From contig WSXU01000015.1 of NCBI GenBank assembly GCA_009773455.1, positions 62,001 to 126,000 on the forward strand: a DNA stretch of 64,000 bases, given 5' to 3'. The notes under the pieces were generated by a model. The model saw only the letters and a list, made by a program, of their open reading frames with translations, did no database searches and had not been told where the DNA came from. Origin of the DNA: Bacteroidota bacterium. GTDB lineage: Bacteria; Bacteroidota; Bacteroidia; Bacteroidales; Lentimicrobiaceae. A program made the translations under genes and the position numbers. Of this stretch, positions 9,215 through 44,467 are shown in pieces (the first letter of the stretch is position 1; each line of letters opens with the position of its first letter).

Positions 9215-9233
9215 TATTCATAGTTAATGATGC

Positions 9234-9271
9234 AGAGAGGCGGTTCAAATCTGAACCGCCTCTCTTTTTTA
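9234..9271 (+). terminator. Rho-independent terminator of the exbBD operon
   Basis: Perfect 14-bp stem (9234-9247 with 9252-9265), loop AATC, followed by six T. It can also act on the opposite strand less well. Confidence 0.93.
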
Positions 9272-9285
9272 CCCTTTTCTGTTAA

Positions 9286-23449: not shown

Positions 23450-26400
23450 TCACATGTTCCTTCTGTACTGCCCTCCTACCCTGAATAATTCGTTGGTAAT
23501 CTGACCGATTGAACAATATTTGGCGGCCTCCATCAGGGCTTCAAACACATTGCCTCCTGTGGCTGCCTTCAGATGCAGATCATGCAGGGCCTTTTCCGCT
23601 TCAGAATGCCATGTTTTGTGCAGTTGTTCAAGCATCTTTACCTGGTAAATCTTTTCTTCCGGTGTTGATCGGATGACTTCCGATGGTATAACCGTCGGGG
23701 ACCCTTCAGATGAAAGAAATGTGTTAACACCCATGATCGGCAGTTTACCATCATGTTTCAGTTTTTCGTAATAGAGCGATTCTTCCTGGATGCGGCTCCG
23801 CTGGTACATGGTTTCCATGGCTCCCAGTACACCACCACGCTCTGTCAACCGGTCAAACTCAGCCATAACCGCTTCTTCTACAAGATCTGTCAGCTCTTCG
23901 ATGATGAATGCCCCCTGCAAAGGATTCTGGTTTTTGGCAAGACCGAGCTCATGATTGATGATCAACTGAATAAATGGCATACAACGCCTGAAGGGTAGTA
24001 CGGATATCGTTGAAGGCGATTTCCTGGGCATGGAGTGAACGGCCTGAGGTCTGAATATGGTATTTAAGCATCTGAGACCGCTCATTGGCCCCATATTTCA
24101 GTTTCATTGCCTTTGCCCAGATCAGCCTTGCTACCCGGCCAAGTACTGCATATTCAGGATCAATGCCGTTGGAGAAAAAGAAGGAGAAGTTTGGTGCAAA
24201 ATCATCGATCTTCATCCCACGCGACAGATAATATTCCACGTAGGTAAATCCGTTTGCCAGTGTCAGTGCAAGCTGGGTGATGGGATTGGCTCCTGCTTCC
24301 GCTATATGGTACCCTGAAATGGAAACAGAATAGAAATTCCTGACGTTGTTCTTTATGAAATATTCCTGCACATCTCCCATCACCTTAAGTGAGAAATCGG
24401 TAGAGAAAATGCAGGTGTTCTGGGCCTGGTCTTCTTTCAGGATGTCGGCCTGAACCGTTCCGCGAACCCTGGAGATGGTTTCCGTTTTAATCTTCTGATA
24501 AACATCGGCAGGCAACACCTGGTCACCGGTGACACCAAGCAACATCAGTCCCAATCCGTCATTGCCTTCAGGTAAATTACCCTGATAGGCCGGCCGTATG
24601 GTACCGCGGCTACTGTAAATACCAGCGATCTTCCTTTCTGTTTCGGCTTCCAGCCCGTGTTTTCGTATATAGAGCTCACATTGCTGGTCGATGGCTGTAT
24701 TCATGAAAAATCCAACCAGGGTCGGAGCCGGACCATTGATGGTCATGCTGACTGAAGTTGCTGCATCCACGAGATTAAAGCCTGAATAGAGTTTCTTGGC
24801 ATCGTCGAGACAGGCAATGGAAACGCCCGCATTCCCTACTTTCCCGTAGATGTCGGGCCGGACATCGGGATCAGCGCCATACAGGGTTACGGAATCGAAT
24901 GCCGTGGATAACCTTCGGGCCGGCATTCCTGCAGAAACATAATGAAACCGTTTGTTGGTCCGTTCAGGCCCGCCTTCTCCGGCAAACATGCGGGTAGGGT
25001 CTTCGTTTTCGCGTTTAAACGGATAAACCCCGGCTGCGAAAGGAAATTCTCCCGGTACATTTTCGCGCAGCGACCATTTCAATATATCGCCCCATCCGTA
25101 ATAACGGGGCATACTGATCTTTGGAATCCTTGAATGGGATAGTGATTCAGTAAAGGTTTCAATTCTGATCTCTTTGCCACGCACCGAATAGATGTATTCG
25201 GGATCGGAGTAGGTTTTTTTCTTCCCTTCCCAGTTATTAAGCAGATCCAGATTCGCTTGCCCCAAAGACTTTTTAAGCAAGGCCGCCTTTGCTTCAAGCA
25301 CTTCATGTACCGTGCCGGTCTCCTTTTGAAGAAGTGCCATGGTATGTTCAAGCGACTGAAGCGAGGTGGCAGTTTCTGCCAGCGTTTCTGATTGCCGGTT
25401 GTAATTCCTGACCGTTTCAGTAATCTCGGAAAGATAACGTACCCTGGCCGGAGGGATGATCTGTGTTCCGGTCTGTTCTTCCCCGGCAGATAAAAGGTTT
25501 GATTTGAAATCAGCACCCATCCTGGCATTCATCAGTACAATAAGATGATCATACAACTTATTGACCCCGGCATCGTTGAACTGGGAAGCCATGGTATTGA
25601 ATACAGGAAGGTCAGCCTCTGCATCCCATATCTTATGATTGCGGGCATATTGCTTTTTGACATCCCGCAAGGCATCTGCCGCACCACGTTTATCCGATTT
25701 ATTGATGGCAATGACATCGGCAAAGTCAAGCATGTCGATTTTTTCAAGCTGGGAAGCAGCACCATACTCGGGTGTCATTACATACAAAGAAATATCAGCA
25801 TAATCCACGATTTCCGTATCGCTCTGCCCGATCCCTGAACTTTCAAGAATGATGAGGTCGAATCCCCCATTTTTCACAATGCAGACGGCATCGCTGATGT
25901 ATTTCGACAACGCCAGGTTGGCCTGACGGGTGGCCATACTACGCATAAAGACCCGTGAAGTATTGATGGCATTCATCCTGATGCGGTCACCAAGCAAGGC
26001 ACCACCGCTTTTTCGCCTTGTAGGGTCAACCGAGAGGATGGCAATCTTCTTTTCAGGATTGGCCTGCAGAAAACGCCTGACCAGCTCATCAACCAGGGAT
26101 GACTTTCCTGCACCTCCTGTGCCTGTGATCCCAAGAACCGGGTTTTTACCCTCATGGCAATCTTTACCAAGTGTTTTGGTGATTTCCCTGATGGTTTCCG
26201 GGGCGTTTTCGGCTGCCGTTATCATTGATGCAATGGCCCGGATATTTCCGTTCCTGATGTCGTCGGGTTTTATTCCTTCAACCTGTCCAACATTGAAATC
26301 AGCCTTCTTCAGCAAATCATTGATCATGCCCTGAAGACCCATATGCCTTCCGTCATCGGGAGAGTAAATTCTGGCAATCCCATATTGATGCAGTTCATCC

Positions 26401-26729
26401 ATTTCGTGCGGCAAAATCACGCCACCGCCACCACCAAAGATTTTGATGTGACCGCAACCGGCTTCCTGAAGCAGATCGTGCATGTATTTAAAGTACTCCA
26501 TGTGCCCGCCCTGATAGGATGTAATGGCAATGGCCTGAACATCCTCCTGGATGGCACACTGTACCACCTCCTGAACGGAGCGGTCGTGGCCCAGATGAAT
26601 GACTTCGGCGCCAGAGGACTGTAAAATCCGGCGCATCACATTGATGGCGGCATCGTGTCCGTCGAACAATGATGCGGCTGTGACGATGCGGATATGATGC
26701 TTTGGTTTGTATGCGGTGGTTTCCTGCAT
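23450..26729 (-). pseudogene. icmF: Fused B12-dependent acyl-CoA mutase (IcmF type), disrupted by a deletion/frameshift
   Basis: Isobutyryl-CoA mutase fused proteins carry, in order, a B12-binding domain, a G-protein chaperone domain and the mutase barrel. All three are here: B12-binding DGHDAAINV and [10 protein letters not shown] (residues ~25-85), Walker [10 protein letters not shown] (near residue 205), and mutase signatures [19 protein letters not shown] and [25 protein letters not shown]. The first frame stops at 23949 after [14 protein letters not shown]. The C-terminal end continues in another frame from [14 protein letters not shown] to 23450. At the junction (about 23970) the segment expected between YAI and QLII, about 27 residues including the conserved SLHTN...DEA part, is missing. 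As read, the product is not a full enzyme. Confidence 0.82.
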
Positions 26730-30541: not shown

Positions 30542-31546
30542 ATGAAAAAATTAATCAATTTTGCTTTAATACTGGCTTTGTTGCCGGTGCTTCTGATGAC
30601 CTCATGTAAAAAGGATGAGCCCGAAGCAGTAAATGCCTATCAAACCCTCAAAACCTATATGGTAACCAACACCCTTGATCTGCCTGATCTGGCAAAGAAC
30701 TGGATTGTCGATCCGAAATCAACCAACATGGGCGGTATTGTCGATTCAGTGACCAGCACCATCCCGGGCTATCATGTTTTTGACATCCGTCCGGCAGCCG
30801 ATTTTGCCACTGGTCACATTAAAAATGCAATCAATGTCGCTTTGAAAGATGTTGTGACTACCGCCGAAAACTACACCGACAAACCTATCCTGGTTGTATG
30901 CTTTACTGGTCAAACCGCTGGTCAGGCTGTTATGGCTCTGCGCCTTTCCGGGTTTGCCAATGCAGTAGTTCTGAAATGGGGAATGGCCGGATGGAATTCT
31001 GCTTTTAAAGCCAAATGGACCGACAATTGCGGCTATGAAACATCGGCCAATGGAAATCTTGCCGTTGGAAGTGCCAATTGGGTAACAAGTGCAGCACCTG
31101 CTGCCGGATCTTTTGATGAGCCTGTATGGACATCAAATTCTACGGATGGAGCTGCAATTCTTAAAGAACGGGTTCAGGCAGTCCTTGACGCCGGATTTAC
31201 CACTGCTGCAGCTTCCGAAGTACTTGCCAATCCTTCCGGTTTCCAGATACATAATTATTGGCCTGTTGCTGATTATACCACTTTCGGGCATTTCAGCGGA
31301 GCTTACAATACACCGGTTATTGCACTTGCCGGGGATCTTGTCAAGACCATTGATCCTTCAAAGGATGCTATTGTATATTGCTATACCGGACAAACTTCAA
31401 GTATCGCCACATTCTGGCTCAATGTACTTGGTTATAAAGCAAAAGGTGTTGGTTTTGGCGCCAACCGACTGGTTTATGATCAGCTTAAAGCCGCTGGAAA
31501 AGCTGTTTATAAAGGCCCGAAAAACTGGGCTGTTGTCACTGATTAA
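30542..31546 (+). CDS. Tandem-rhodanese lipoprotein
   Basis: 334 residues. Lipoprotein signal (MKKLINFALILALLPVLLMTSC, lipidated Cys22). Two rhodanese domains each keep an active-site cysteine: CFTGQT in the first (residues ~118-123) and CYTGQT in the second (residues ~280-285). Rhodaneses carry sulfane sulfur on that cysteine. The position in the envelope implies extracytoplasmic sulfur transfer. The gene leads the plus-strand group porin, two-domain sulfurtransferase and TauE, though a terminator-like hairpin at 31567 separates it from the porin. Confidence 0.88.
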   Translation: MKKLINFALILALLPVLLMTSCKKDEPEAVNAYQTLKTYMVTNTLDLPDLAKNWIVDPKSTNMGGIVDSVTSTIPGYHVFDIRPAADFATGHIKNAINVALKDVVTTAENYTDKPILVVCFTGQTAGQAVMALRLSGFANAVVLKWGMAGWNSAFKAKWTDNCGYETSANGNLAVGSANWVTSAAPAAGSFDEPVWTSNSTDGAAILKERVQAVLDAGFTTAAASEVLANPSGFQIHNYWPVADYTTFGHFSGAYNTPVIALAGDLVKTIDPSKDAIVYCYTGQTSSIATFWLNVLGYKAKGVGFGANRLVYDQLKAAGKAVYKGPKNWAVVTD

Positions 31547-31566
31547 TCAATAATAGAATTTAATCG

Positions 31567-31600
31567 AAGGGGAAGCATTTTTGACATTGCTTCCCCTTTT
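31567..31600 (+). terminator. Terminator between tandem-rhodanese and porin genes
   Basis: 11-bp stem AAGGGGAAGCA (31567-31577) with TGCTTCCCCTT (31588-31598) then TTAAAA. The T-run is short, so read-through is possible. Confidence 0.65.
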
Positions 31601-31612
31601 AAAAAAACAGCG

Positions 31613-32737
31613 ATGAAAAAAAAAATCACAGCTTTGTTGTTGATTCTTATGACCGGGTCGTTTTCTGCACGTGCCCAGGGATGTATGGAGCCAACCTCAT
31701 CAACAGGCGGCCCGACAATTATCGGGTACATTCAACCTGAATTCAGGTATGAATTTAATGGTGAAAATGCCGATGGCACATCGAAAGATGCTTCAACCTG
31801 GTGCCTGCGCCGGGCTCGCCTTGGTGTTGCCGGCAACATTCCCTATGACTTTTCTTATTATGCATTGGCAGAATTCAGTTCATTTCAGAACGGGCCTTAT
31901 ATGCTGGATGCATTTGTTTCCTATAACAGGTTGAAACCATGGTTGAAAATATCAATGGGACAGTTTAAAAAACCATTTGGCCTGGAGCTTTCAACAGGCT
32001 GCCAGGATTTATACACCATCAACCGGTCTAAAGTGGTGGAAGAACTTACCGCCCCCGATCGTGACCTAGGCATCATGCTCAGCGGAACAACGGGAACAAA
32101 AAAAATATTTGGACTCGAAAAGGAGAATATAATATCATGGTACCTTTCTTTTACGAATGGAACCGGTAAAAATGTGTTCGACGGTGATCTGAAGAAAGAT
32201 CTGACAGGTCGCATAGTCATTGCCCCCTATGATTGGATCAGTATTGGAGGCAGCTATCTGGCAGGGAAACAGAAAAATCCGGATGTCACCGTTAAAGAAA
32301 TGGATGAGCGTATGAGATATGGCGCTGATCTGCAGTTGAAAAAATACAATTTCATCCTTCAGGCAGAATACCTTTTCGGACAAGACAAGGGATCAAAACT
32401 GATCGGAGGCGGATGTGGTTCGACCCCTGAACTTGTGGTCGGCGACTTCAAAAGCAACGGCTACTTCGCACAGCTGATGTACAACACGCCCTGGAAACTT
32501 ATGCCACTGGTAAAATACGAAACCTACGACCCGGATATGGATCAGGAAGACTACATCCATGAAGCTTATCGTGTATCAACCATGACTTTCGGCCTGAATT
32601 ATTACCCGAATGACTGGACCAGGTTACAGATCAACTACATGTATAAAACTGAAGCCAGTTCTTCCACTGAACTCATCAATTATAATGAGGTTCCAAACGA
32701 TATGCTTCAAATACAGATTCAGGTTAAATTAAATTAA
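31613..32737 (+). CDS. OprO/OprP-like porin
   Basis: 374 residues with a signal peptide (MKKKITALLLILMTGSFSARAQG) and the repeated strand patterns of an outer-membrane barrel. Features such as GYIQPEFRYEF, CLRRARLGVAGNIPYDFSYYALAEF and MGQFKKPFGLELSTG resemble the phosphate-selective porin O/P family. It ends in LQIQIQVKLN. Anions such as thiosulfate are a plausible cargo from the context, but that is inference. It is 6 bp upstream of the exported sulfurtransferase. Confidence 0.82.
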   Translation: MKKKITALLLILMTGSFSARAQGCMEPTSSTGGPTIIGYIQPEFRYEFNGENADGTSKDASTWCLRRARLGVAGNIPYDFSYYALAEFSSFQNGPYMLDAFVSYNRLKPWLKISMGQFKKPFGLELSTGCQDLYTINRSKVVEELTAPDRDLGIMLSGTTGTKKIFGLEKENIISWYLSFTNGTGKNVFDGDLKKDLTGRIVIAPYDWISIGGSYLAGKQKNPDVTVKEMDERMRYGADLQLKKYNFILQAEYLFGQDKGSKLIGGGCGSTPELVVGDFKSNGYFAQLMYNTPWKLMPLVKYETYDPDMDQEDYIHEAYRVSTMTFGLNYYPNDWTRLQINYMYKTEASSSTELINYNEVPNDMLQIQIQVKLN

Positions 32738-32743
32738 TTATCC

Positions 32744-33613
32744 ATGAAAAAACTATTTATCCCGGCTTTTTTGATACTCACCTTTCTCATTCCTGTAAAG
32801 GTTCTGTTATCCAACACGCTGATCATTGACGCAAAAACCTTTGCTGCGGAGCTCAAGACCAATAAAAATATGATTGTTATTGATGTTCAGGCTGCCGATG
32901 TCTATGCTAAACAGCATATACAGGGAGCCATCAATATCCCTCATAAAAGTCTTTATAAGGAAGGCCCCATCGAAGGTCAGTTTAAAGATGCCGCTGAACT
33001 TGCTGTCATTTTCGGGAAAAAAGGGGTGAGCAATACTTCGAAAATCGTCATCTACGATGATGGCTCACAGAAATACAACAGCCGCATCTGGTGGGTTTTA
33101 AAATATCTGGGGGCCTCTGATGTTTGTCTCTTGCATAAAGAAATGTCACAGATGGAGGCTGCCCGCATTCCAATGACAACCATGGCGAAGACCTTACCGG
33201 CAACAACCTTTGTGGTATCTGTCAATCCTGAAATGAACATTGAAATGGCAGCGGTAAAGTCTCTTTCAGGCAATCCGGATGCCATCATCCTCGACAACCG
33301 CGAAAGGGATGAGTTTGATGGAATGGATAAAGACAAGCGCAGCAAAGGCCACCTGCCGGGAGCGGTGTTTATGAACTTCAAGGAAGTACTGACTTCAACC
33401 GGTGCCTATAAAACAAAAGAGGAGATTATTGCTGCTGTTTCCGGATTCGGTGTAACCCCTGATAAACAAGTTGTGGTTTATTGCCAGACAGGCATCAAGG
33501 CTGCTGTTGTTTATATAGCACTAAAGGAAATAGCGGGTTTCAGTAATGTGAAACTATACGCAGGCGCCTATGCTGAATGGGCTTCTGTTGATGGAAATCC
33601 GATTGAAAAATAA
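32744..33613 (+). CDS. Exported thiosulfate sulfurtransferase (two rhodanese domains)
   Basis: 289 residues with a signal peptide (MKKLFIPAFLILTFLIPVKVLLSN). The domain order is that of classical TST/SseA proteins. The N-terminal rhodanese domain is inactive: at the catalytic-loop position it has YDDGSQKYNSR, with no cysteine. The C-terminal domain is active, with VVYCQTGIKAAVVY. It would transfer sulfur from thiosulfate to an acceptor, in the periplasm. It is in the porin operon. Confidence 0.9.
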   Translation: MKKLFIPAFLILTFLIPVKVLLSNTLIIDAKTFAAELKTNKNMIVIDVQAADVYAKQHIQGAINIPHKSLYKEGPIEGQFKDAAELAVIFGKKGVSNTSKIVIYDDGSQKYNSRIWWVLKYLGASDVCLLHKEMSQMEAARIPMTTMAKTLPATTFVVSVNPEMNIEMAAVKSLSGNPDAIILDNRERDEFDGMDKDKRSKGHLPGAVFMNFKEVLTSTGAYKTKEEIIAAVSGFGVTPDKQVVVYCQTGIKAAVVYIALKEIAGFSNVKLYAGAYAEWASVDGNPIEK

Positions 33614-33639
33614 GATATTGCCGGGTTTTTCTTTGGTTC

Positions 33640-33665
33640 AGAGCTGCTTCAGTTGAAGCAGCTCT
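33640..33665 (+). terminator. Hairpin after the exported sulfurtransferase
   Basis: Stem AGAGCTGCTTC with GAAGCAGCTCT, loop of 4, followed by only mixed sequence (GTTGC), so a weak terminator at best. Confidence 0.5.
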
Positions 33666-33887
33666 GTTGCTATAATTAAACGATCACTACCTACAGTTTC
33701 AACAGATAAGATTCCGTGAAAAAGCAATGCATTTATTGCGATAATTTCAGCGTTTTATTATCATTGCACACTTTTTCTCCGAGCTGAAGAATCTAAAGCC
33801 CTGCCGGGTTATGAATCTGCAGCCGATGGGTTTTCCGGGAAACCGGATAGCCTCCCGGATATTAAATATAAATTGGAAAGGAGAATC

Positions 33888-34622
33888 ATGGTCTACAATG
33901 AACTGCTCTTTATCGCCGGCCTGGCATTGATTGCCTATTTTTACTCCTCTGTCGGGCATGGCGGAGCAAGCGGGTACCTGGCCCTGATGGCCCTCTTTGG
34001 ATTTGCGCCCGAATCAATCCGCTATTATGCGCTGATGTTGAATCTTGTAGTTTCAGCGGTTGCTTTTGTATCGTATTACAGGGCTGGTTTTTTCAGAGGA
34101 AGGATAGTCTGGCCTTTTCTGATAGCGTCAATGCCTTCTGCTTACTTTGGAGCCAGGCTGAGCATCGATCCGGTGGCATACAAAATTATTCTGGGCATCA
34201 TGTTGCTTATCGCTGTATTGAGAATGCTGCTGATCAGGAATAAAGAGAATACATCGGTGAAAGATCCTCCCTACCACATTGCCATTGTCACCGGACTTTT
34301 GCTTGGTTTTGTTTCAGGAGTCATCGGTATCGGGGGAGGCATCCTTTTATCTCCATTGCTGATACTTGCAGGCTATGCACGTATCAAACAGGCGGCAGCG
34401 GCATCCGCACTTTTTATTTTTCTCAACTCAGCGACAGGCTTGAGTGGGTTGCTGAGTAAACAAATAGATTTTCGCCCTGAAGTCATCTACTGGATGCTTA
34501 CAGTGCTGGTTGCCGGATTTATTGGTTCGGCGAACGGTAGCCATTCTTTTTCCGAACTGAACCTGAAGAGAGTATTATCGGTAATCCTGCTGGCAGCGAG
34601 TCTGAAATTGTTTTTTTTCTGA
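33888..34622 (+). CDS. TauE/SafE family sulfite/sulfonate exporter-type permease
   Basis: 244 residues with about eight membrane helices. The N-terminal YFYSSVGHGGASGYLALMALFG and the second-half GLLLGFVSGVIGIGGGILLSPLLIL are the paired repeats of the TauE/SafE family, which export sulfite, sulfoacetate or related anions. The ATG at 33888 follows a good ribosome site (GGAAAGGAGAATC); a TTG at 33873 is rejected. It converges on the cytochrome gene, 2 bp apart. Context suggests it exports sulfite. Confidence 0.85.
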   Translation: MVYNELLFIAGLALIAYFYSSVGHGGASGYLALMALFGFAPESIRYYALMLNLVVSAVAFVSYYRAGFFRGRIVWPFLIASMPSAYFGARLSIDPVAYKIILGIMLLIAVLRMLLIRNKENTSVKDPPYHIAIVTGLLLGFVSGVIGIGGGILLSPLLILAGYARIKQAAAASALFIFLNSATGLSGLLSKQIDFRPEVIYWMLTVLVAGFIGSANGSHSFSELNLKRVLSVILLAASLKLFFF

Positions 34623-34624
34623 AA

Positions 34625-37342
34625 CTACCAGACAGGCAAAATACAAGTTTTCTTCCTCAACCGTATTTCCCCGTTAAAATCGGATAAAGCCTTTTTCATC
34701 ACATCAGAATTCTCTTTGTGGCAGGTAAGACAGGCTCCGGCGGTAAGAATTTTTTTCTGTTCTGAAATGCTGAATGGTCTCATCCCCATCCTTGTCGAAG
34801 CCAATCCTTTCCTTTCTTTCAGGAAACCTGTCCAGGCATCTTCCGGAAGTCCATCCTCTTTGTTTGTTTTATATTCCGGATCAAAGACCCAGTTACCTCC
34901 TGCAGTAAGCGTCAGACTTCCCCTTCCGTAACCAAGTGCCAGTGGATCGTTATGGCACGATTTACACGAACGGCCGGTCCGCTGTGTAGTGTGGGCAGAT
35001 GCTGGTGCATACAAACGATGAAATGTTTTTCCGCTTCCCTTCCTGTACGACTCCTTATCAAGGGTCATAATCATCCCGGGAATGAACGTTGTAATCTTTC
35101 CACCCCTGACGGATTTATCTGTTTCATTCACACCAAGAACCGGCAGTTCAGCCAGTCCTTCCGCTGCGTATTCGACCCAGCTGCCATTCCGCCGCTTCCC
35201 GGTAAGCATATCATATCCATTCTCTTTGGTGTTAAATTCAGTATGGCAACCTATACACTGGGGTGCCCAACCTGTATGACAGGCATCGCAGCTGAGCCGG
35301 TTATGTGCAATCCCCCGGGTGCATGCTTCGGCGGGAGGATTCATTAATCCGGATCCTGTTCCTGATTTCCTGATCAGCTTCAGGATTTTTCCCTTTTGTT
35401 CAACCCGGGTATTGATCAGCGCATGACCCACCTTTTGTGTAAGAATAATTTCAGCATCCGGATTGTTGTATCCCCTAAGCCATGCGATTAACCTGGTTTC
35501 CTGATCTGTATCTCCTATTTTTGCTGTTCTGATTACCTTTATTGCATGACAATCGGTACATTGTACCTTAACCGCTTCCTCCTTGTGCATATACCTGTTC
35601 CCATCGCCCATCAGTTCAAAGGATCCATGACAATCGGTGCAAAGCATCCCGGCCTTATGGTGTACATCTTCCGGTTGTTTAATGAATACCCTTTTATCGG
35701 GAAGGACCATCAGATCGTTTCTTCCTTTTAAATCTGATGTCTTAAGGTTGGTTTCATGCCAGCCTTCATAATTCATGGATATCCTTCCCGACCGGCTGTG
35801 GCAGCTTTTGCAGTGGTCGTTGGTAATGGCCAATCCAATAGCAGGATGGAATGCTGGTGAATCATTCTCTGCAATCCCCTTTTTCAGTTTTATCAGTGTG
35901 GAAAGGGCTTTAGCATCATATTTCAGATGGCAGGCATTGCAACCCCCACCCCTGTCAAGCCAATCCGGGGGCCCCGGGTTTCGCTTTTCATTACCCAGAT
36001 GACAGCCGGCACATAAATTTCTCAAATGCACATCCGAAGGCGTTTTTGAGCCAATATCCCCAACGGTGGCATGTCCTTCAGGCAGTTCGTTTTCTCCAAA
36101 AACCCAGCGATCAACACTGATCATCCCGCTCAGTGTGGCCATCAGGCTTCGTGGCAATCTTTCAGCAATGCCGGTGTGGCAACCCGACCCTCCGCATGCC
36201 GACCCGGCATTCGACAGATTCCCCGGAACCCGGAACATTCCCCGGTGTGCCAGGGATTTATCAAGCGTCAAAGGATCTCCGCCATGGCAAGAATAACATC
36301 CGATGTTGCGGGGATTGTGCGCGTCACTGAACCCGGTCATCCCAACATGACAACTCAGACAGCCTTCCACCCTTCCGTTGATTGAAATGATTTCTCTGTT
36401 ATCACCCCGGAACAGTGAAATATGATCCGGAACAAGAAGTTCAGAAATCCTGGATTCTGCCTGCCAGGGCCATTGCCACTGCCAGTAAGCACCCCTGAAG
36501 AATAATCCACTGATTGTAAGAACCCCGTAAATCACTGTAAATGAGATCAGCAGTTTCAGTGTAATTCTCTTTGGCTTCAGTTTCATATAGAAGATCAGGC
36601 AGAACAGAAGCAGCAGAATTAACATTCCATAGGCAACATAGGCTGTTTCAGATAACCAGTGCAGGATTTCCTGAATCCCGGCAAAATACCAGGGGCCCTT
36701 CATCATCTCCTCGTTCATTCCCTGCAAAGGAGCCCTCAGAAAAAAGCTCAGAAAGCCCAAAAACAGTGCTGTAATTACAAATGTCCTGATGTTTACGGCA
36801 AGGCTCCGGACGTGCTCATAAACAACAATAAAAATTATGATCGTGGCTGTAGCTGCATGGTGTATGTATAGTAACAGGAATTTGCCTGACGGACCAACAA
36901 AGGTATCGGCGAGCATTTGGCCAGCAAGAGGAATGCTGCTTAACAATGAATTCAGAATACGCTGAGCCTGCAGACCATCCCCGTCACCCTTCAGGATAAA
37001 ACCTGAGATCATGACATAAAAAACAAAAGCGAGGGATGCCGAAAGCCTTAACCATACACCGGCAGACCGGAGATTTTTCTCGCTGTTCTTCAAAAGATGG
37101 TCAAAAACATGAAAAAGGGTAAGGATCAGAAACAGCTGCGCACTCCAATAATGAATATTGCGGGCAAAGGAGGCTGCCGGATTTGCGGTTACCAGTCGTG
37201 TGACTGACAGGTACGGATTTGAAGCATCATAAGGAATAGTAAGCAGAAGACCTGAAACTGCACAAAGAATCAAGGCAGCCGTAGCGACCCAACCGACTGA
37301 ATCAAATGCCAGAAACGACCACAGCTTTTTTCTCAGGTTCAC
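34625..37342 (-). CDS. Cytochrome b fused to a multiheme cytochrome c domain
   Basis: 905 residues starting with GTG. The N-terminal half is a cytochrome b/b6-type membrane domain: H64-X13-H78 and H162-X14-H177 are the two bis-histidine heme-b pairs. Further helices end with a WQWQWPWQA segment like subunit IV proteins. From residue ~328 a periplasmic domain holds 11 CxxCH heme-c motifs (CLSCH, CYSCH, CAGCH, CNACH, CKSCH, CTDCH twice, CDACH, CIGCH, CKSCH, CLTCH) and one CX4CH (CGGSGCH). With the Rieske gene 4 bp upstream this is a bc-type quinol-oxidising complex with its electron outlet fused on. Confidence 0.92.
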   Translation of the reverse strand: MNLRKKLWSFLAFDSVGWVATAALILCAVSGLLLTIPYDASNPYLSVTRLVTANPAASFARNIHYWSAQLFLILTLFHVFDHLLKNSEKNLRSAGVWLRLSASLAFVFYVMISGFILKGDGDGLQAQRILNSLLSSIPLAGQMLADTFVGPSGKFLLLYIHHAATATIIIFIVVYEHVRSLAVNIRTFVITALFLGFLSFFLRAPLQGMNEEMMKGPWYFAGIQEILHWLSETAYVAYGMLILLLLFCLIFYMKLKPKRITLKLLISFTVIYGVLTISGLFFRGAYWQWQWPWQAESRISELLVPDHISLFRGDNREIISINGRVEGCLSCHVGMTGFSDAHNPRNIGCYSCHGGDPLTLDKSLAHRGMFRVPGNLSNAGSACGGSGCHTGIAERLPRSLMATLSGMISVDRWVFGENELPEGHATVGDIGSKTPSDVHLRNLCAGCHLGNEKRNPGPPDWLDRGGGCNACHLKYDAKALSTLIKLKKGIAENDSPAFHPAIGLAITNDHCKSCHSRSGRISMNYEGWHETNLKTSDLKGRNDLMVLPDKRVFIKQPEDVHHKAGMLCTDCHGSFELMGDGNRYMHKEEAVKVQCTDCHAIKVIRTAKIGDTDQETRLIAWLRGYNNPDAEIILTQKVGHALINTRVEQKGKILKLIRKSGTGSGLMNPPAEACTRGIAHNRLSCDACHTGWAPQCIGCHTEFNTKENGYDMLTGKRRNGSWVEYAAEGLAELPVLGVNETDKSVRGGKITTFIPGMIMTLDKESYRKGSGKTFHRLYAPASAHTTQRTGRSCKSCHNDPLALGYGRGSLTLTAGGNWVFDPEYKTNKEDGLPEDAWTGFLKERKGLASTRMGMRPFSISEQKKILTAGACLTCHKENSDVMKKALSDFNGEIRLRKKTCILPVW

Positions 37343-37346
37343 GGTC

Positions 37347-37739
37347 TCAGATTTTTACTATTGTTTCACCTGTTTGGGGATCATACCAATGCTGAAGTTT
37401 TTTTAAAGGCAGGAGTGCCGGTCCTTTCAGAACCCTGCCTGTTGAGGCTTCAAACCTGGATCCATGGCAGGAACAAATAAGTTCACCTGAAGATTCACGG
37501 TTTATCGTACATCCGGCATGTGTGCACTTTCTTGAGAAAAAACTAACGCCACCGCCATCAATGAATATGATAAACTCTTCCCTGAAATAAACCCCCTGAC
37601 CGAGATTTGACACATCAATCCTGGTTTTTTCGGGCGGAGTCGTTAACAACCTGTTCTTCCCTGCAATTGAATACCAGAGGGAAAGAAATATCCCTGTACC
37701 TGCCAGTGACAGCAGTCTGATAAATGCTCTGCGGGTTAT
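37347..37739 (-). CDS. Rieske [2Fe-2S] protein
   Basis: The Rieske cluster ligands are clear: CTHAGC and CSCHGSRF, in the ~100-residue C-terminal domain. The open frame continues upstream through TRRAFIRLLSLAGTGIFLSLWYSIAG, a twin-arginine-like signal/anchor helix needed for a periplasmic Rieske protein. No ATG, GTG or TTG lies before this helix; the nearest possible codon is ATA at 37737-37739, used here as a provisional start (131 residues). A TTG at 37649 would drop the anchor. It is first in the operon with the cytochrome b fusion. Confidence 0.75.
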   Translation of the reverse strand: MTRRAFIRLLSLAGTGIFLSLWYSIAGKNRLLTTPPEKTRIDVSNLGQGVYFREEFIIFIDGGGVSFFSRKCTHAGCTINRESSGELICSCHGSRFEASTGRVLKGPALLPLKKLQHWYDPQTGETIVKI

Positions 37740-38099: not shown

Positions 38100-38276
38100 T
38101 TAATCAAAAAACAACAGGGTCTTACTTTAAAATGATGACTGTCCTGAATTTCTGACCTATATTATTGATTTGGTTATAGATAGCATCGTAATTTACATCA
38201 GATCCGGGCCGGTAAAGCAAGTCTGTAAATGCAAAAACCGGATAGTGCATCAGAACATATAAACGAATTGGTCCCG

Positions 38277-40529
38277 ATGAAAACCAGAAGAGACTTTATT
38301 AAAATTTCAGCATTGGGCCTGGGTGCCGTGGCATTGACAGCCGGCTCGGGCAGAATGGGGCTTGGTATGCCATTGTTTGGCAAAGAAACCGGGCCAGACA
38401 ATGAAGGAGATGTACTTCGCAGGGTACCGACCTACTGTGAAGTTTGTTTCTGGAAATGTGCCGGATGGGCTTATGTTAACAGTGAAGGCAGAATAGTTAA
38501 GGTTATCGGCAACGAAGATGATCCACAGTGCAACGGACGCTTGTGCCCCCGGGGAACCGGCGGTGTTGGGATGGTCTATGATGAAGACCGCTTAAAAAAA
38601 CCATTGATTCGTGTAACTGAAAACGGTAAACAGACTTACAGGGAGGCAAGTTGGGATGAGGCGCTGGAATATATAGCTTCGAAAATGAAAGGAATTTCTG
38701 AAAAGTTCGGCCCTGAAAGCATTGCTCTTTTCAATCACGGCTCTGCCGGACATTACTTTACCCACCTTCTGAATGCTTTCGGATCCTCAACCGTTGCTGC
38801 GCCTTCCTACGCCCAGTGTCGGGGGCCACGTGAAGTCGGCTTTGAAACAACCTTCGGTTCACAGGTTGGGAGTCCTGAACCAACCGACATCAGGGATACA
38901 CGATGCATGGTTCTGATCGGATCTCATATCGGTGAAAACATGCACAACGGTCAGGTGCAGGAAATGTCGGATGCGATCGACAAAGGGGCTGTCATCATCA
39001 CGGTTGACCCCCGACTTTCAACCGCAGCCAGCAAATCAAAATACTGGTTACCGATCAAACCGGCTACCGACATAGCCTTGCTGCTCTCCTGGATACACGT
39101 TCTTATTAACGATGAAATCTATAACAAGGAATATGTTGCCATGCATGCCACGGGCTTTGAAGAGTTAAAGGCAGCCGTTAGTAAATATACACCCGAATGG
39201 GCATATGGCATTACAACCATCGAACCGGAGCTGATACGTAAAACTGCCAAGGAAATGGCCGATGCGGCCCCTGCGGTGATTGTCCATCCGGGACGTCATG
39301 TTACCTGGTATGGCGACGATGCCCAGCGGTCAAGGGCAATAGCCCTGCTCAACGCACTCCTTGGATCATGGGGTTCACGCGGAGGTTTCTTCATGAAAGA
39401 AGGCGCTTCAATTCCCGAACATCATCATCCGGAATATCCGAAGCCTTCCTGGTCATGGCCTGAAACCCTTAATGGGAAGTACCCTTATGCTAAAATGTCG
39501 GTTACCAATGCCTTCATCGATGCCTCCATTGCTTCCCCCGAAAATAAGCATCAGATTCACGGATGGATTATTGCCGGAACAAACCTGCCAATGGCGATCC
39601 CTCTGAAAAGTCAGATGCTTAAGGCGTTGGAGGAACTTGATCTGGTAGTGGTGGTGGATACCATGCCCACTGAAGTAACAGGTTACGCCGACGTTATACT
39701 TCCGGAATGCACCTATCTTGAGAGATATGATGATCTGCGTGATTCTCCCCACCGGGTGCCCACTGTTGCCCTGCGAGCTCCGGCCATTGAGCCGATGTAT
39801 GATTCCAAACCGGCATGGTGGATCGCCAAACAGATCGGTGAAAAACTGGGACTGCATGCATATTTTGAATATGATGATTATAAAGAGGTCATTGACTGGC
39901 AGTTAAACCAGATGGGTTCCTCCCTGAAGGAACTCGAAAAAACAGGGGTGATTGTATTCCCGCGAAAGAAGGGATCACCATACCTGGATAACTCACAACC
40001 ACATGCCTTCACTACGGCCTCGGGGAAAATTGAATTGTATTCAGAATCCCTTGCTGCCGCCGGATTTGACCCGGTACCGGTATACACTCCTCATCCGGAG
40101 CCGGAGGAAGGATTCTATCGTCTCATATACGGCAGGGCACCGATGCATACATTCAGCCGTACAGCCAACAATCCTAATCTCACCGACCTGATGAAAGAGA
40201 ATTCTGTATGGGTCAATCCAAGGGTCGCCAGATTATGGGATCTGGAAAATGGCGCATATACGTATCTCAAAAATCAGGATGGCGTTGTATCTTCTTTTCC
40301 CGTTAAGGTCCGGATCACTGAACGCATCCGCTGGGACTCAGTGTATATGGTTCATGGTTTCGGCCACAGCAAAAAAGAGCTCTCGAGGGCTTTCGGCAAA
40401 GGAGCCAACGACACTGAATTAATCACCAATGTAATGATTGATCCGATGATGGGTGGTACCGGGATGCGTGGAAATTTTGTAACATTCGTAAGCAACATGG
40501 ACCAAAATATGAAGGAGGTTGAATCATGA
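38277..40529 (+). CDS. Molybdopterin oxidoreductase, Phs/Psr (thiosulfate/polysulfide reductase) type catalytic subunit
   Basis: 750 residues. A twin-arginine signal (MKTRRDFIKISALGLGAVAL) sends the folded enzyme to the periplasm. Next comes a 4Fe-4S site, CEVCFWKC with the last ligand in RLCPRGTGG. The molybdenum-ligand region is SYAQCRGPREVGF, where the cysteine fits the PsrA/PhsA class. Size matches PhsA/PsrA, not the longer TtrA or SoeA. The ATG at 38277 begins the Tat signal. It is followed, overlapping by 4 bp, by its FeS subunit and then an NrfD anchor. Direction of reaction (thiosulfate/polysulfide reduction or reverse) cannot be read from the sequence. Confidence 0.88.
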   Translation: MKTRRDFIKISALGLGAVALTAGSGRMGLGMPLFGKETGPDNEGDVLRRVPTYCEVCFWKCAGWAYVNSEGRIVKVIGNEDDPQCNGRLCPRGTGGVGMVYDEDRLKKPLIRVTENGKQTYREASWDEALEYIASKMKGISEKFGPESIALFNHGSAGHYFTHLLNAFGSSTVAAPSYAQCRGPREVGFETTFGSQVGSPEPTDIRDTRCMVLIGSHIGENMHNGQVQEMSDAIDKGAVIITVDPRLSTAASKSKYWLPIKPATDIALLLSWIHVLINDEIYNKEYVAMHATGFEELKAAVSKYTPEWAYGITTIEPELIRKTAKEMADAAPAVIVHPGRHVTWYGDDAQRSRAIALLNALLGSWGSRGGFFMKEGASIPEHHHPEYPKPSWSWPETLNGKYPYAKMSVTNAFIDASIASPENKHQIHGWIIAGTNLPMAIPLKSQMLKALEELDLVVVVDTMPTEVTGYADVILPECTYLERYDDLRDSPHRVPTVALRAPAIEPMYDSKPAWWIAKQIGEKLGLHAYFEYDDYKEVIDWQLNQMGSSLKELEKTGVIVFPRKKGSPYLDNSQPHAFTTASGKIELYSESLAAAGFDPVPVYTPHPEPEEGFYRLIYGRAPMHTFSRTANNPNLTDLMKENSVWVNPRVARLWDLENGAYTYLKNQDGVVSSFPVKVRITERIRWDSVYMVHGFGHSKKELSRAFGKGANDTELITNVMIDPMMGGTGMRGNFVTFVSNMDQNMKEVES

Positions 40530-41059
40530 GATATGCGATGGCAATTGACACCCTGAAATGCGTAGGGTGCAGCGACTGCGTGGTGGCATGCCAGATGGAA
40601 AACAATGTCCCCATCGGTTTCTGTCGCGATTGGGTCACCGAAACCGTAGATGGGAGCTATCCTAATGTTGAAATTGAGCTCCGGTCAGAAAGGTGTAACC
40701 ATTGTGATAATTCACCATGCGTAAGGTGCTGCCCGACAGGTGCCAGCCACATTGAAGACGGGGGCATTGTTCTGGTAACCCACCACAAGTGCATCGGCTG
40801 CGGGGCCTGCATCCAGGCCTGCCCCTATGAGGCACGCTATTCTCATCCTGAAGGTTATGTTGATAAATGCACCTTCTGCATCCACCGGGTGAGAAAAGGC
40901 GACAAGCCTGCCTGTGTTGCTGTTTGCCCGACAAAATGCATGTACTTTGGCGACCTTGACGATCCGAATTCTGAAATCACAAATGTATTGAAGAACCGGA
41001 AATTCAAATCACTGGCACCTGAAGCGGGCACCAATCCTCAAATATTTTACCTGATCTGA
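40526..41059 (+). CDS. 4Fe-4S ferredoxin-type electron-transfer subunit (PsrB/PhsB type)
   Basis: 177 residues with four cysteine clusters (CVGCSDCVVAC, CNHCDNSPCVRCC, CIGCGACIQAC, and CTFC with CVAVC), the four-cluster layout of PsrB/PhsB/NrfC proteins. It wires the catalytic subunit to the membrane anchor. Its ATG overlaps the stop of the preceding gene (ATGA). No signal peptide, as expected if it is carried out with the Tat-exported partner. Confidence 0.93.
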   Translation: MRYAMAIDTLKCVGCSDCVVACQMENNVPIGFCRDWVTETVDGSYPNVEIELRSERCNHCDNSPCVRCCPTGASHIEDGGIVLVTHHKCIGCGACIQACPYEARYSHPEGYVDKCTFCIHRVRKGDKPACVAVCPTKCMYFGDLDDPNSEITNVLKNRKFKSLAPEAGTNPQIFYLI

Positions 41060-41082: not shown

Positions 41083-42024
41083 ATGAAAGAAGAATTGTTC
41101 GTTAGCGGCCGCAATATCCCTAACATCGACCCATACCTGAATATCTGGCACTGGCAGATTCCTCTGTACCTTTTTCTTGGGGGTCTTGCTGCCGGAATTC
41201 TATTTTTTGCTGCTCTGTTTACCATCATGGGCAAGGAAAAAGAGATGCCTGCCGCCGTTAAAAAAGCACCCATAATTGCTCCCATTGCACTCATACTCGG
41301 CCTTATCGCACTGTTTCTGGATCTGAAGCACAAGCTTTTTTTCTGGCAGCTGTACACAACCATCCGGCTGGAGTCGCCCATGTCGTGGGGTGCCTGGGTA
41401 CTGATGGCCATCACACCCCTTTCAATGCTTTGGGTTGCAAGTTATATGAAGGAGCTGGTTCCGGGATGGAAATGGAAAAATAACCTGCTCGAATCGTTCG
41501 AGGGTTTTGTCATTAAATACCGCCTGTGGATGGCCTGGATGATCATTGTGTTGTCTGTTATCCTCGGCATTTATACCGGAATCCTGTTGTCGGCCTTCAA
41601 TGCCCGTCCTCTCTGGAACACCAGCATTCTCGGGCCACTGTTCCTGGTTTCCGGCATGTCAACCGGGGCAGCAACCATTCTGATTATGAGTAAATCGAAA
41701 GAAGAGCGGCGTACCATGAGCTGGATTGATCTCCTGCTTATTATTGTAGAGTTGTTTTTTATCACACATCTGATTATGGGAATGAAAGCAGGATCACAGG
41801 TTCAGATTGATGCGGTTTCCTTATTCCTCGGTGGTCAGTTTACGGTTTCATTCTGGGTTTTTGTAATTCTTCTCGGGCTGGTATTTCCTGCAATCCTCGA
41901 AATTCTCGAAAGGATAGGTTATCATATTCCGGTGGTTATACCAGTTGCACTCATTCTGCTGGGCGGATTAATGTTCAGGTTCATCATGGTCGAAGCCGGC
42001 CAGCTGACAAGATATCTTTATTAA
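41083..42024 (+). CDS. NrfD/PsrC family membrane anchor subunit
   Basis: 313 residues with about eight helices. It opens with NIWHWQIPLYLFLGGLAAGILFFAALF, matching NrfD/PsrC proteins that exchange electrons with the quinone pool. Together with the two upstream genes it makes a complete three-subunit Psr-like complex, taking electrons from or giving them to menaquinone. Confidence 0.92.
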   Translation: MKEELFVSGRNIPNIDPYLNIWHWQIPLYLFLGGLAAGILFFAALFTIMGKEKEMPAAVKKAPIIAPIALILGLIALFLDLKHKLFFWQLYTTIRLESPMSWGAWVLMAITPLSMLWVASYMKELVPGWKWKNNLLESFEGFVIKYRLWMAWMIIVLSVILGIYTGILLSAFNARPLWNTSILGPLFLVSGMSTGAATILIMSKSKEERRTMSWIDLLLIIVELFFITHLIMGMKAGSQVQIDAVSLFLGGQFTVSFWVFVILLGLVFPAILEILERIGYHIPVVIPVALILLGGLMFRFIMVEAGQLTRYLY

Positions 42025-42043
42025 AACAACAATACGATCTGCT

Positions 42044-42571
42044 ATGGAACATAATAAAAGAGACGGCTCATTTTACATCAACCCATACCTGGGCGGTGTA
42101 CTGCTGGGCCTTGTGTTGTTCGCAACCTATTACGTCACCGGCCGTGGACTTGGAGCAAGCGGTGCGGTCAAAAGTACCGTTGTTACTACCGTTCACACTG
42201 TTGCACCGCAACATGCCCATAATTCAGGATACTACAGTCAGTTTCTGAGTGACGATATCAGTCCTATGAGCAATTGGCTGGTATTTGAAGTGTTGGGCGT
42301 ATTGGCCGGCGCCTTCCTTTCGGGAACCCTATATGGCCGGTTGAAGTTCAAAACCGAGCATTCCCCGAAAATTACAGGCCGCAGACGGCTGATTGCTGCC
42401 GCTGCCGGAGGTATGCTGTTCGGCATCGGATCACAGTTTGCACGTGGTTGTACTAGCGGGGCGGCCCTTAGTGGAATGGCCGTATTGTCGGCTTCCGGGA
42501 TCATAACCATGATGGCCATTTTCGGATCAGCCTATCTTTTTGCATGGATATTTAAAAAACTCTGGATCTAA
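42044..42571 (+). CDS. YeeE/YedE family thiosulfate/sulfur transporter, first half
   Basis: 175 residues, a half-size YeeE/YedE (TsuA-like, DUF395) membrane protein. The conserved motif GIGSQFARGCTSGAALSGMAV carries the cysteine that members use to bind thiosulfate sulfur. It is paired with the next gene, the two halves acting together, 18 bp apart. Confidence 0.88.
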   Translation: MEHNKRDGSFYINPYLGGVLLGLVLFATYYVTGRGLGASGAVKSTVVTTVHTVAPQHAHNSGYYSQFLSDDISPMSNWLVFEVLGVLAGAFLSGTLYGRLKFKTEHSPKITGRRRLIAAAAGGMLFGIGSQFARGCTSGAALSGMAVLSASGIITMMAIFGSAYLFAWIFKKLWI

Positions 42572-42589: not shown

Positions 42590-43183
42590 ATGACAGGCCC
42601 TCTGATTCCAATGGAAATAATACCTGAAGCATGGAACAATGTGATTGCATTGCTGCTGGGTATGGGCTTCGGATTTGTACTCGAAGCTTCTGGTTTTTCA
42701 TCCTCCCGCAAAATTATGGGAACCTTCTTTGGTTATGATTTTGTTGTGCTGAGGGTTTTCTTTACTGCTGCCATAACTGCAATGAGTGGCATCATCTATT
42801 TCGATTTCATGGGATGGATGGACGCTTCGATGCTATACATAAATCCATATTATGTCACTTCTGCCATCGCTGGAGGTGTAATTATGGGCTTTGGATTTGC
42901 CCTGGGAGGCTTTTGCCCGGGAACAAGTTTCTGCGGTGTCGCCATCGGGAAATTCGATGCCATGTTTTTCAGTGCCGGTCTCTTTCTGGGTATACTCCTG
43001 TTTTCTGAAATGTATCCGCTTTTTGCCGGAATCTACAACAGTGAGAACCTTGGGGACATAAAAATATATGAGATGCTCGGTATGAAAAGAAATCTTTTCG
43101 CATTTCTCCTGATTGTGGCTGCCGTAGGAATGTTCTATGGTGCCGCTTTCGTTGAAAAGAAAGTTACTAAAGTCGAATATTAA
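42590..43183 (+). CDS. YeeE/YedE family thiosulfate/sulfur transporter, second half
   Basis: 197 residues with the partner motif GFGFALGGFCPGTSFCGVAIGKFDA (cysteines in GFCPGTSFCG). Split YeeE/YedE pairs like this are widespread in sulfur-using bacteria and transport thiosulfate or other sulfur donors across the inner membrane. The following genes encode rhodanese-fold proteins, consistent with handing over sulfur. Confidence 0.88.
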   Translation: MTGPLIPMEIIPEAWNNVIALLLGMGFGFVLEASGFSSSRKIMGTFFGYDFVVLRVFFTAAITAMSGIIYFDFMGWMDASMLYINPYYVTSAIAGGVIMGFGFALGGFCPGTSFCGVAIGKFDAMFFSAGLFLGILLFSEMYPLFAGIYNSENLGDIKIYEMLGMKRNLFAFLLIVAAVGMFYGAAFVEKKVTKVEY

Positions 43184-43196
43184 CTGAAACAGGCAG

Positions 43197-43817
43197 ATGA
43201 ACAAACGATATCTGATACTCGCCATCCTTGCTGTTGCTGTTGGAGCCGGCATATTGTTTATGCCTGAAACCGACAGGGATAAGGAGATGAAACCGGAACA
43301 GCTACTTATTGCCATCGACGATCCGTCAAGGTTTCTTACGACAGATCTTATAACCGACCGGCTCGTAAAAAACGACCCTTCCCTCCTGCTGATTGACGTG
43401 CGTACTGCAGAACAGTTCAAAGAATTTTCTGTGCCCGGATCGGTCAACATTCCACTTGATTCCCTGCTGACTACCTCATCAATCGGGATAATGAGCAACA
43501 AAGACATTGACAAGGTCTTTTGTTCAAATTCAGAGCTTACTGCTGATCAGGCCTGGATCCTGGCGAAACGCCAGGGGATTGAAACCATTTTTGTTATGCA
43601 GGGTGGAGTTAATAAATGGTTTGACGATATTGTAAAGGTTGAGGAACCCTCTCCGACTGAACCTTCGGAGGCAATCGCACTTTACCGGTTCCGAAAAGCC
43701 GCCAGTCAGCATTTCTTCGGGACTCCTGAAATAAAATCTGTGGTGCAGCCTCTACCCAAAAAATCCGTTACTGTCCATAAAGCTCCGGCCGGCGCTACTT
43801 CCGGAGGAGGTTGCTAG
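43197..43817 (+). CDS. Membrane-anchored rhodanese-like protein ending in Gly-Gly-Gly-Cys
   Basis: 206 residues. One N-terminal membrane anchor (MNKRYLILAILAVAVGAGILF), then a rhodanese-like domain (residues ~30-145: LLIDVRTAEQFKEF, SVPGSVNIPL) with an apparent catalytic cysteine in VFCSNSELTA. The remainder is a Pro/Lys/Ala-rich flexible tether that ends at the very C-terminus in ATSGGGC. The protein has only two cysteines, the catalytic-loop one and the terminal one. It should face the periplasm. It is co-directional with YeeE/YedE, and its paralogue follows 20 bp later. Confidence 0.85.
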   Translation: MNKRYLILAILAVAVGAGILFMPETDRDKEMKPEQLLIAIDDPSRFLTTDLITDRLVKNDPSLLLIDVRTAEQFKEFSVPGSVNIPLDSLLTTSSIGIMSNKDIDKVFCSNSELTADQAWILAKRQGIETIFVMQGGVNKWFDDIVKVEEPSPTEPSEAIALYRFRKAASQHFFGTPEIKSVVQPLPKKSVTVHKAPAGATSGGGC

Positions 43818-43837
43818 TTGTCAGAAAAAAATCCTAT

Positions 43838-44467
43838 ATGAAAGAACTTAGCAAAACGAACCGTTTGACCATCGTTGTCGTTGCCATCGTGGTTGTCTTC
43901 TCGGCAGGGTTATTAACCCTCCGGAAACCCGAAATAAAGTATAGTCTGAGTCCTGAAGTAGTTATTGAGATGCTCGGAGACAGCAGCAATTACATTTCTC
44001 CGGAACGCCTGCAGTCTATACTTGATCGGAACGATGGGAAATCTCTCCTGATTGACATCCGGAATTCAATTGCATTCGATAAAAGCCATCTTCAGAATGC
44101 CAGAAATATCCCCGTAAGGGAGCTGTTTACAAAACAGAATCTTACGTTTCTGAGGAGTGCTGACAAAGGCGGGCAAACTATCCTGATCTATGGTGAATCG
44201 CCCCGACAGGCCAACGGACCATGGATTCTGCTCAGACAATCAGGATTTAACAATATTAAACTTGTAAATGCGACACTTAATCAGCTGGGCATTTCTGAAA
44301 GTGATACTTTGACCGGAAAATACAGCCTTCTGAATGAGCTGCCTCTAATTGACACTGCTGCTTTGAAAAAACTGACCGAAGCTCCGGCTTCTGTTGAAAA
44401 ACCAGTTCAGGCAAAGAAAACAGTAGTCCCTGTAAAGACATCGCCTTCATCCGGTGGAGGATGTTAA
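43838..44467 (+). CDS. Membrane-anchored rhodanese-fold paralogue, active-site cysteine lost, ending in Gly-Gly-Gly-Cys
   Basis: 209 residues with the same layout as the upstream protein: N-terminal anchor (TIVVVAIVVVFSAGLL), rhodanese fold (LLIDIRNSIAFDKSHL, QNARNIPV) and a Pro/Lys/Val-rich tether (EKPVQAKKTVVPVKTSPSS) ending in SSGGGC. At the catalytic loop it has LIYGESPRQANGPW with no cysteine, so the C-terminal cysteine is the only one in the whole protein. I chose the ATG at 43838; a TTG at 43811 would overlap the preceding gene. A role as a sulfur-carrier arm is inferred. Confidence 0.82.
   Translation: MKELSKTNRLTIVVVAIVVVFSAGLLTLRKPEIKYSLSPEVVIEMLGDSSNYISPERLQSILDRNDGKSLLIDIRNSIAFDKSHLQNARNIPVRELFTKQNLTFLRSADKGGQTILIYGESPRQANGPWILLRQSGFNNIKLVNATLNQLGISESDTLTGKYSLLNELPLIDTAALKKLTEAPASVEKPVQAKKTVVPVKTSPSSGGGC

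Follow-up and report, generated by a model that had tools for sequence, protein, structure and literature searches.

SoxY carries the motif GGCGG on its arm, DsrC is a cytoplasmic protein of another fold that bears sulfur on a C-terminal cysteine arm, and Sud of Wolinella succinogenes bears it on a cysteine of the rhodanese loop. The ubiquitin-like sulfur carriers ThiS and MoaD end in Gly-Gly-COOH. SoxY, as part of SoxYZ, is described as a periplasmic sulfur carrier with its cysteine on a swinging arm (PMC11237559), and passage of sulfur from this cysteine to SoxT, a transporter of the YeeE family, has been called conceivable in an account that describes sulfur import as poorly understood (PMC11582611). 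Cys293 of TsuA is reported as the first cysteine of the TsuA relay (PMC11073785), and YedE1E2 is reported to import zero-valent sulfur, with two cysteines required (PMC10812762).

The window analysed here, the whole stretch of 64 000 nucleotides from a member of the Lentimicrobiaceae (Bacteroidota), holds two neighbouring genes, rhdA and rhdB, whose products share the ending GGGC (Table 1). Directly upstream on the same strand lie genes for a PhsA/PsrA-type subunit, an FeS subunit, an NrfD protein and the half-YeeE proteins YeeE1 and YeeE2, which bears out the periplasmic and sulfur-related context put forward in a preliminary description of this DNA. The profile PF00581 (Rhodanese; cut-off 22.2 bits) matched both RhdA (E 9.8e-12, 45.7 bits) and RhdB (E 4.8e-10, 40.2 bits) and was the sole family profile to do so at E 1e-3, with no match to a SoxY or DsrC profile. 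The predicted structure of RhdA also matched rhodanese domains (Foldseek), and an RhdA profile matched 1qxn (E 2.5e-6), which we take to be Sud. In the AlphaFold models (mean pLDDT 89.7 for RhdA and 84.8 for RhdB), the rhodanese domain was confident in both proteins and the N-terminal helix spanned residues 3–20 in RhdA and 3–26 in RhdB. Confidence was low from about residue 175 in RhdA (block means 74, 54, 65 and 52) and from about residue 151 in RhdB (block means 55, 56, 76 over a helix, 57, 67 and 56), where the low-confidence parts comprised the tail and the stretch 151–170; the flexible tether proposed in the preliminary description is thus present in both models. An alternative start of RhdB at a TTG codon (43811) is less likely than the ATG used here.

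Table 1. Features of the rhdA–rhdB locus (positions in the window)
Feature	Position	Strand	Description
PhsA/PsrA-like molybdopterin subunit	38229..40529	+	N-terminus Tat-signal-like (TRRDFIK, by eye)
PsrB/NrfC/TtrB-like 4Fe-4S subunit	40526..41059	+	Profile matches
NrfD/PsrC-like membrane subunit	41083..42024	+	Profile matches
YeeE1	42044..42571	+	Half-YeeE matching the C-terminal half of PF04143
YeeE2	42590..43183	+	Half-YeeE matching the N-terminal half of PF04143; in some genomes a fusion partner of an Rhd protein
RhdA	43197..43817	+	206 aa, ends ATSGGGC, stop TAG; N-terminal membrane helix, rhodanese fold, helix 157–174, flexible tail SGGGC
RhdA flexible arm	43719..43814	+	Residues 175–206, low pLDDT, GGGC-COOH end
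RhdB	43838..44467	+	209 aa counted from ATG, ends PSSGGGC, stop TAA; layout as RhdA; Gly at the catalytic position (YGES)
RhdB flexible arm	44378..44464	+	Last 29 residues, low pLDDT, GGGC-COOH end

Relatives were drawn from three sources. With RhdA as the query, 128 of 295 genomes from the same order gave a match at E 1e-5 (116 of them strong), and neighbourhoods were taken from 40 of the 128; 80 named loci were the best 80 of 486 matches; and a search of 395 genomes of the phylum matched 109 at E 1e-10, weaker matches being generic rhodaneses, with the best 30 supplying loci. Hosts among the best 80 of the 486 matches included Draconibacterium, Maribellus, Jejuia and Mangrovimonas, and two of these 80 came from one isolate labelled Neomarinimicrobiota and five were labelled Chlorobiota (labels as given). 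After exclusion of duplicates and of proteins truncated at a contig end, a protein was scored as having a terminal GC if no more than two residues followed that GC. This ending was present in all 121 RhdA proteins (relatives from Bacteroidota), in 88 of 89 RhdB proteins, the exception (L051) having an early stop, and in all 18 fusions of YeeE2 with an Rhd protein. The preliminary description had made its case depend on conservation of the terminal cysteine in homologues, and these counts uphold it. Among RhdD double rhodaneses, eight of 23 had the ending and 15 were tail-less; it was present in all four RhdL proteins, which is weak evidence since they were found with a tailed query. In a count independent of labels, 231 of 236 rhodanese-profile matches at most 1500 bases from a YeeE gene had a terminal GC. 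The five untailed ones comprise the RhdB of L051, three RhdD proteins and, in L078, a rhodanese of 142 residues that neighbours RhdA. No terminal GC was found in YeeE1, YeeE2, NrfD, PsrA or PsrB of the sampled loci, or in 20 generic rhodaneses chosen among the weaker hits of the 395-genome search.

The terminal cysteine was invariant in alignments A1–A4, in which the tether was variable. Its column held cysteine in 225 of 226 aligned proteins and the next-best cysteine column in at most 27 of 226. Comparison of the sequences confirmed that the GGGC ending shared by RhdA and RhdB is far from chance. In some relatives the cysteine was followed by one or two further residues (e.g. GGCE in the L078 RhdA), and one subgroup had tails ending (K/R)EGC, with a single Gly (L164, L167, L170, L171, L173, L175–L178, L181, L183–L185 and L187). 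YeeE1 of this subgroup mostly ends in RRQW plus one residue. In the window genome (95.4 % complete), the pattern GGNGGNTGY directly followed by a stop occurred at 56 sites. Besides RhdA and RhdB these comprised 54 sites, of which no more than two close frames of at least 60 codons (63 and 67; probably not genes). A role of the GGC ending as a general sorting tag in this genome was rejected, as RhdA and RhdB were the sole plausible carrier genes in this search. In L072, an unlabelled gene of 189 residues (8819–9388) lying 3' of a YeeE2-Rhd fusion also ends in GGC.

The rhodanese active site had a different fate. Among 119 RhdA proteins, the catalytic position held Ser in 102, Gly in seven, Cys in seven and Ala in three; cysteine was present in two of 89 RhdB proteins and absent from 87, and none of the 18 fusions had it. 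In the window RhdA, Ser109 occupies the catalytic position, and the adjoining C108 is private to this protein and not conserved. C108 was considered as the loop cysteine of an active rhodanese and rejected, as the alignment places Ser109 at the catalytic position. The rhodanese domain of RhdA, RhdB and the fusions is therefore mostly dead, the two window proteins do not qualify as active sulfurtransferases, and a working rhodanese domain that loads its own arm, as the layout in the preliminary description would imply, is not supported (catalytic cysteine gone in 112 of 119 RhdA, 87 of 89 RhdB and 18 of 18 fusions). With this cysteine missing in nearly all, the terminal one is, across the aligned proteins, the only conserved thiol of the Rhd proteins.

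Tails were alike within a locus. Over the 11 residues that precede the final three, the two tails of 84 RhdA–RhdB pairs were 68 % identical within the locus, compared with 24 % for the bodies of the proteins. Between loci, RhdA tails were 22–52 % identical across body-identity bins up to 70 %, and 74 % identical above 70 %; the within-locus value thus exceeds the 52 % reached by RhdA tails of other loci at 60–70 % body identity. Compared with the tail of the nearest RhdA orthologue (<70 %), that of the partner was closer in 61 of 84 cases, equal in four and farther in 19. For 67 thinned pairs, 4.31 of six identities were observed versus 2.06±0.11 after shuffling (maximum 2.42 in 2000 shuffles). 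Lys makes up 29 % of tail residues, which raises the identity baseline, and the between-locus values contain the same bias. Codon agreement at shared residues of the last 14 was 0.45, as expected from codon usage (0.45), and 0.43 in the body (0.42 expected). Because the codons agree only as usage predicts, recent gene conversion was rejected as the source of the similar tails, which are better explained by selection acting on the peptide than by DNA copied recently. As the tails are alike at the protein level, one common partner probably reads both RhdA and RhdB tails, although the shared tails could also be a docking tag. RhdD tails were near-identical to RhdA/RhdB tails in L058, L068 and L150, and RhdD or RhdL tails were unlike them in L101, L119 and L133.

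A hydrophobic N-terminal segment was found in all 118 RhdA and 89 RhdB proteins examined. Its N-flank was more positive than its C-flank in 101 of 118 RhdA but only 50 of 89 RhdB. Seven of eight tailed RhdD proteins have a lipobox-like N-terminus (by eye), which places the tail in the periplasm. The YeeE2-Rhd fusions have five or six hydrophobic segments, and a topology of YeeE2 with the N-terminus out and the C-terminus in would put their rhodanese domain outside. Cleavage or lipidation of the terminal tail in a way that hides the thiol is unlikely because of the hydrophobic N-terminal segment, the fusion of some of these proteins to a polytopic channel and the lack of a general GGC tag in the window genome.

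Both YeeE halves have an invariant cysteine. All 131 relatives retain Cys136 of YeeE1, which lines up with Cys293 of Spirochaeta TsuA (position counted by hand). Cys109 of YeeE2, kept in 136 of 136, is likely to be the equivalent of TsuA Cys91, judging from the half-family match and PMC11582611. No third conserved cysteine column was found in YeeE1 or YeeE2, C115 of YeeE2 being present in 57 of 136. Strong matches to RhdA and YeeE1 occurred together in 114 of the 295 genomes of the order, with RhdA alone in two and YeeE1 alone in five. At 134 non-redundant loci, YeeE was accompanied by Psr in 104, by an octaheme enzyme and/or cytochrome b with a YeeE2-Rhd fusion in 16, and by neither Psr nor an octaheme enzyme as far as seen in 12 (one being a fusion and several stretches being short); one locus had Psr with a fusion and one had Psr without YeeE. 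The one octaheme protein tested belongs to the tetrathionate reductase family cytochromes (TIGR04315, 548.4 bits; cut-off 375), and the cytochrome b beside it is similar to the b subunit of thiosulfate reductase, at a score below the cut-off (107.5 of 204 bits).

Natural exceptions show which partners can be absent. Genome G588 (99 % complete; L219, 7–5148) has PsrABC-RhdA-RhdB, with the last 14 residues of RhdA and RhdB identical, and a genome-wide search for PF04143 gave no match; YeeE is thus not obligatory for a tailed Rhd pair. NrfD was searched at E 1e-5 in ten genomes. Matches were strong in the window genome and G588; among seven octaheme-type genomes there were none in six and a weak one in G214, and none was found in G247. 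Psr is not obligatory either, since seven of eight tailed-Rhd genomes without adjacent Psr gave no match with NrfD alone as the query. The G247 locus (L078) has YeeE1-YeeE2-RhdA without an adjoining Psr or octaheme enzyme, together with a tail-less RhdD opposite and the tail-less 142-residue rhodanese 3' of RhdA.

Other genes of the window were also noted. A divergent cytochrome b, a multihaem protein (ExtM-like, far below the cut-off) and a Rieske protein are encoded at 34625–37649 on the reverse strand; an ExtM-like gene was seen in at least 32 of 106 loci with Psr, many stretches being short. A second sulfur cluster (30542–34622) encodes a double-rhodanese probable lipoprotein without a GGC tail, a porin O/P, an SseA-like double rhodanese and a membrane protein that is presumably TauE/SafE-like. 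At 23949–26729 (reverse strand) lies a gene for a long protein that we take to resemble a fused cobalamin-dependent acyl-CoA mutase and GTPase domain.

The explanation that we favour, with modest confidence, is that RhdA and RhdB are membrane-tethered pseudo-rhodanese sulfur carriers whose swinging GGC arm serves the YeeE channel as well as a sulfur enzyme of the periplasm. It is supported by the layout, the near-invariant cysteine, the lost rhodanese cysteine, the co-occurrence, the fusions and the shared tail sequences, and the accounts of SoxY with SoxT, YedE1E2 and Sud provide precedents. The rhodanese fold would be retained as a scaffold that probably serves in docking or in binding anions, and the working group would be the thiol of the near-terminal cysteine on a flexible Lys/Val/Ala-rich arm. 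We infer that sulfur is carried on this cysteine, which would take up sulfane sulfur in the periplasm as a persulfide or S-thiosulfonate. The arm may then swing between the respiratory sulfur enzyme (Phs/Psr-type or, in other lineages, an octaheme enzyme with cytochrome b) and the external opening of the YeeE1/YeeE2 channel, with putative docking sites at both and transfer that may run towards the channel. There, the periplasmic arm cysteine would act as donor ahead of the first channel cysteine, and the two invariant cysteines of YeeE1 and YeeE2 would continue the relay inward. Evidence against this explanation comes from the genomes without YeeE or Psr, the tail-less members (L051 RhdB, the short L078 rhodanese and 15 of 23 RhdD), the RhdD and RhdL tails unlike those of RhdA/RhdB, and the 19 of 84 pairs in which the nearest orthologue has the closer tail. 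In addition, the SoxT authors express doubt about transfer from cysteine to cysteine in the channel, given a spacing of about 7 Å (PMC11582611).

The genome without YeeE implies that the arm must have a role at the reductase too, comparable to that of Sud beside PsrABC, and a carrier moving between enzyme and channel would fit work at both. A reading in which the arm is dedicated to the reductase is unlikely; the Rhd proteins would then act as a tethered Sud, presenting sulfane sulfur either to PsrA or to the octaheme enzyme, and YeeE would be a mere neighbour with a separate import function. G588, which keeps Psr, RhdA and RhdB with identical tails and lacks YeeE, and the reported presentation of polysulfide by Sud for PsrABC (PMC2628731) are in favour of this reading; however, YeeE is present at 133 of the 134 non-redundant loci, 18 of which have it as a fusion with Rhd, while the redox enzyme switches from Psr to the octaheme type. 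The locus-specific tails common to two or three proteins resemble one binding site, and the tail might accordingly be a docking or assembly peptide, with its cysteine in a structural disulfide (RhdA-RhdB or Rhd-YeeE) that holds a complex together without carrying sulfur. We consider this decidedly unlikely, as the tail persists at loci with a single labelled Rhd protein and in fusions, for which a tether to YeeE would be superfluous, and Gly-Gly ahead of the cysteine would suit entry into a narrow site.

Known sorting tails are likewise C-terminal, short and flexible. It is nevertheless highly improbable that the tail acts as a signal for processing or sorting (by C-terminal lipidation, cleavage or transpeptidation), given its restriction to RhdA and RhdB among plausible genes of the window genome, the hydrophobic N-terminal segment of every RhdA and RhdB examined and the variants that extend beyond the cysteine. 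There is equally little to recommend binding of another soft element or ion (selenium, tellurium or copper) by the cysteine. The divergent neighbour is similar to ExtM, a protein of selenite/tellurite reduction operons (221.7 of 800 bits, far below the cut-off), whereas the rhodanese, PhsA/PsrA, thiosulfate-transporter-like and, elsewhere, tetrathionate-reductase-family neighbours indicate sulfur.

A tentative extension of the carrier reading, which we hold to fall somewhat short of probable, is a portable 'sulfur handle': a lineage-specific GGC peptide borne by at least three rhodanese scaffolds (dead membrane RhdA/RhdB, YeeE2 fusions, and double-rhodanese lipoproteins with the loop cysteine kept) and concerted within a genome owing to a single partner by which all the tails are read. 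On this view, dead rhodaneses would form a new class of periplasmic carrier, feeding a Cys-relay channel from outside. The locus bears on the delivery of sulfane sulfur to YeeE-type channels, as it provides a widespread module with a single conserved thiol, a removable arm and natural channel fusions. If RhdA and RhdB are indeed carriers, a dead enzyme fold has been reused for this purpose.

No published description of a mostly dead, GGC-tailed rhodanese pair with split YeeE was found in a literature search that covered only some subscription journals and no preprints, and an NCBIfam search gave no specific family for RhdA or RhdB. A relation to the selenoprotein TsoB was considered; the NCBIfam match to RhdB was weak (21.4 of 805 bits), and the available sections of PMC13188914 showed no closer link. 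In the YTD cluster of sulfur disproportionators, YeeE occurs with TusA and DsrE proteins (PMC12998232, PMC13047784), and Desulfurivibrio dismutans has YeeE, secreted sulfurtransferases and Psr (PMC12142623); the available sections of these accounts mention no GGC rhodanese and no such tail, respectively.

Among described systems, SoxY resembles RhdA and RhdB in its working part only, a Gly-rich near-C-terminal cysteine on a mobile arm; it has another fold, the SoxYZ complex and Sox enzymes as partners, whereas RhdA and RhdB have a membrane-tethered rhodanese fold and matched only PF00581. DsrC shares a C-terminal cysteine arm with RhdA and RhdB, but its profile matched neither. Unlike ThiS and MoaD, they have a cysteine after Gly-Gly and do not belong to that group. 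Sud is periplasmic and works beside PsrABC, a context also met at RhdA/RhdB loci; RhdA and RhdB differ in having mostly lost the loop cysteine and kept the terminal one, and are not members of the Sud group. YedE1E2 and PmpAB are likewise split YeeE halves with one conserved cysteine each, and the available sections of their accounts mention no Rhd-GGC partner (PMC10812762, PMC11582611). TsuA-TsuB (YeeE-YeeD) is comparable in that a cysteine relay in the YeeE channel is reported to receive a further cysteine from a partner protein (PMC11073785). TsuB, however, is described there as TusA-type, providing a 'fourth cysteine' at the cytoplasmic exit, whereas the RhdA/RhdB cysteine would lie at the periplasmic entrance and, if the 'sulfur handle' exists, would be the 'zeroth cysteine' to TsuB's 'fourth'. 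Swinging cysteine arms and periplasmic sulfur-transfer rhodaneses are thus already known, whereas the literature searched held no mostly dead rhodanese whose GGC tail evolves in concert and which occurs both in pairs and as a fusion with split YeeE.
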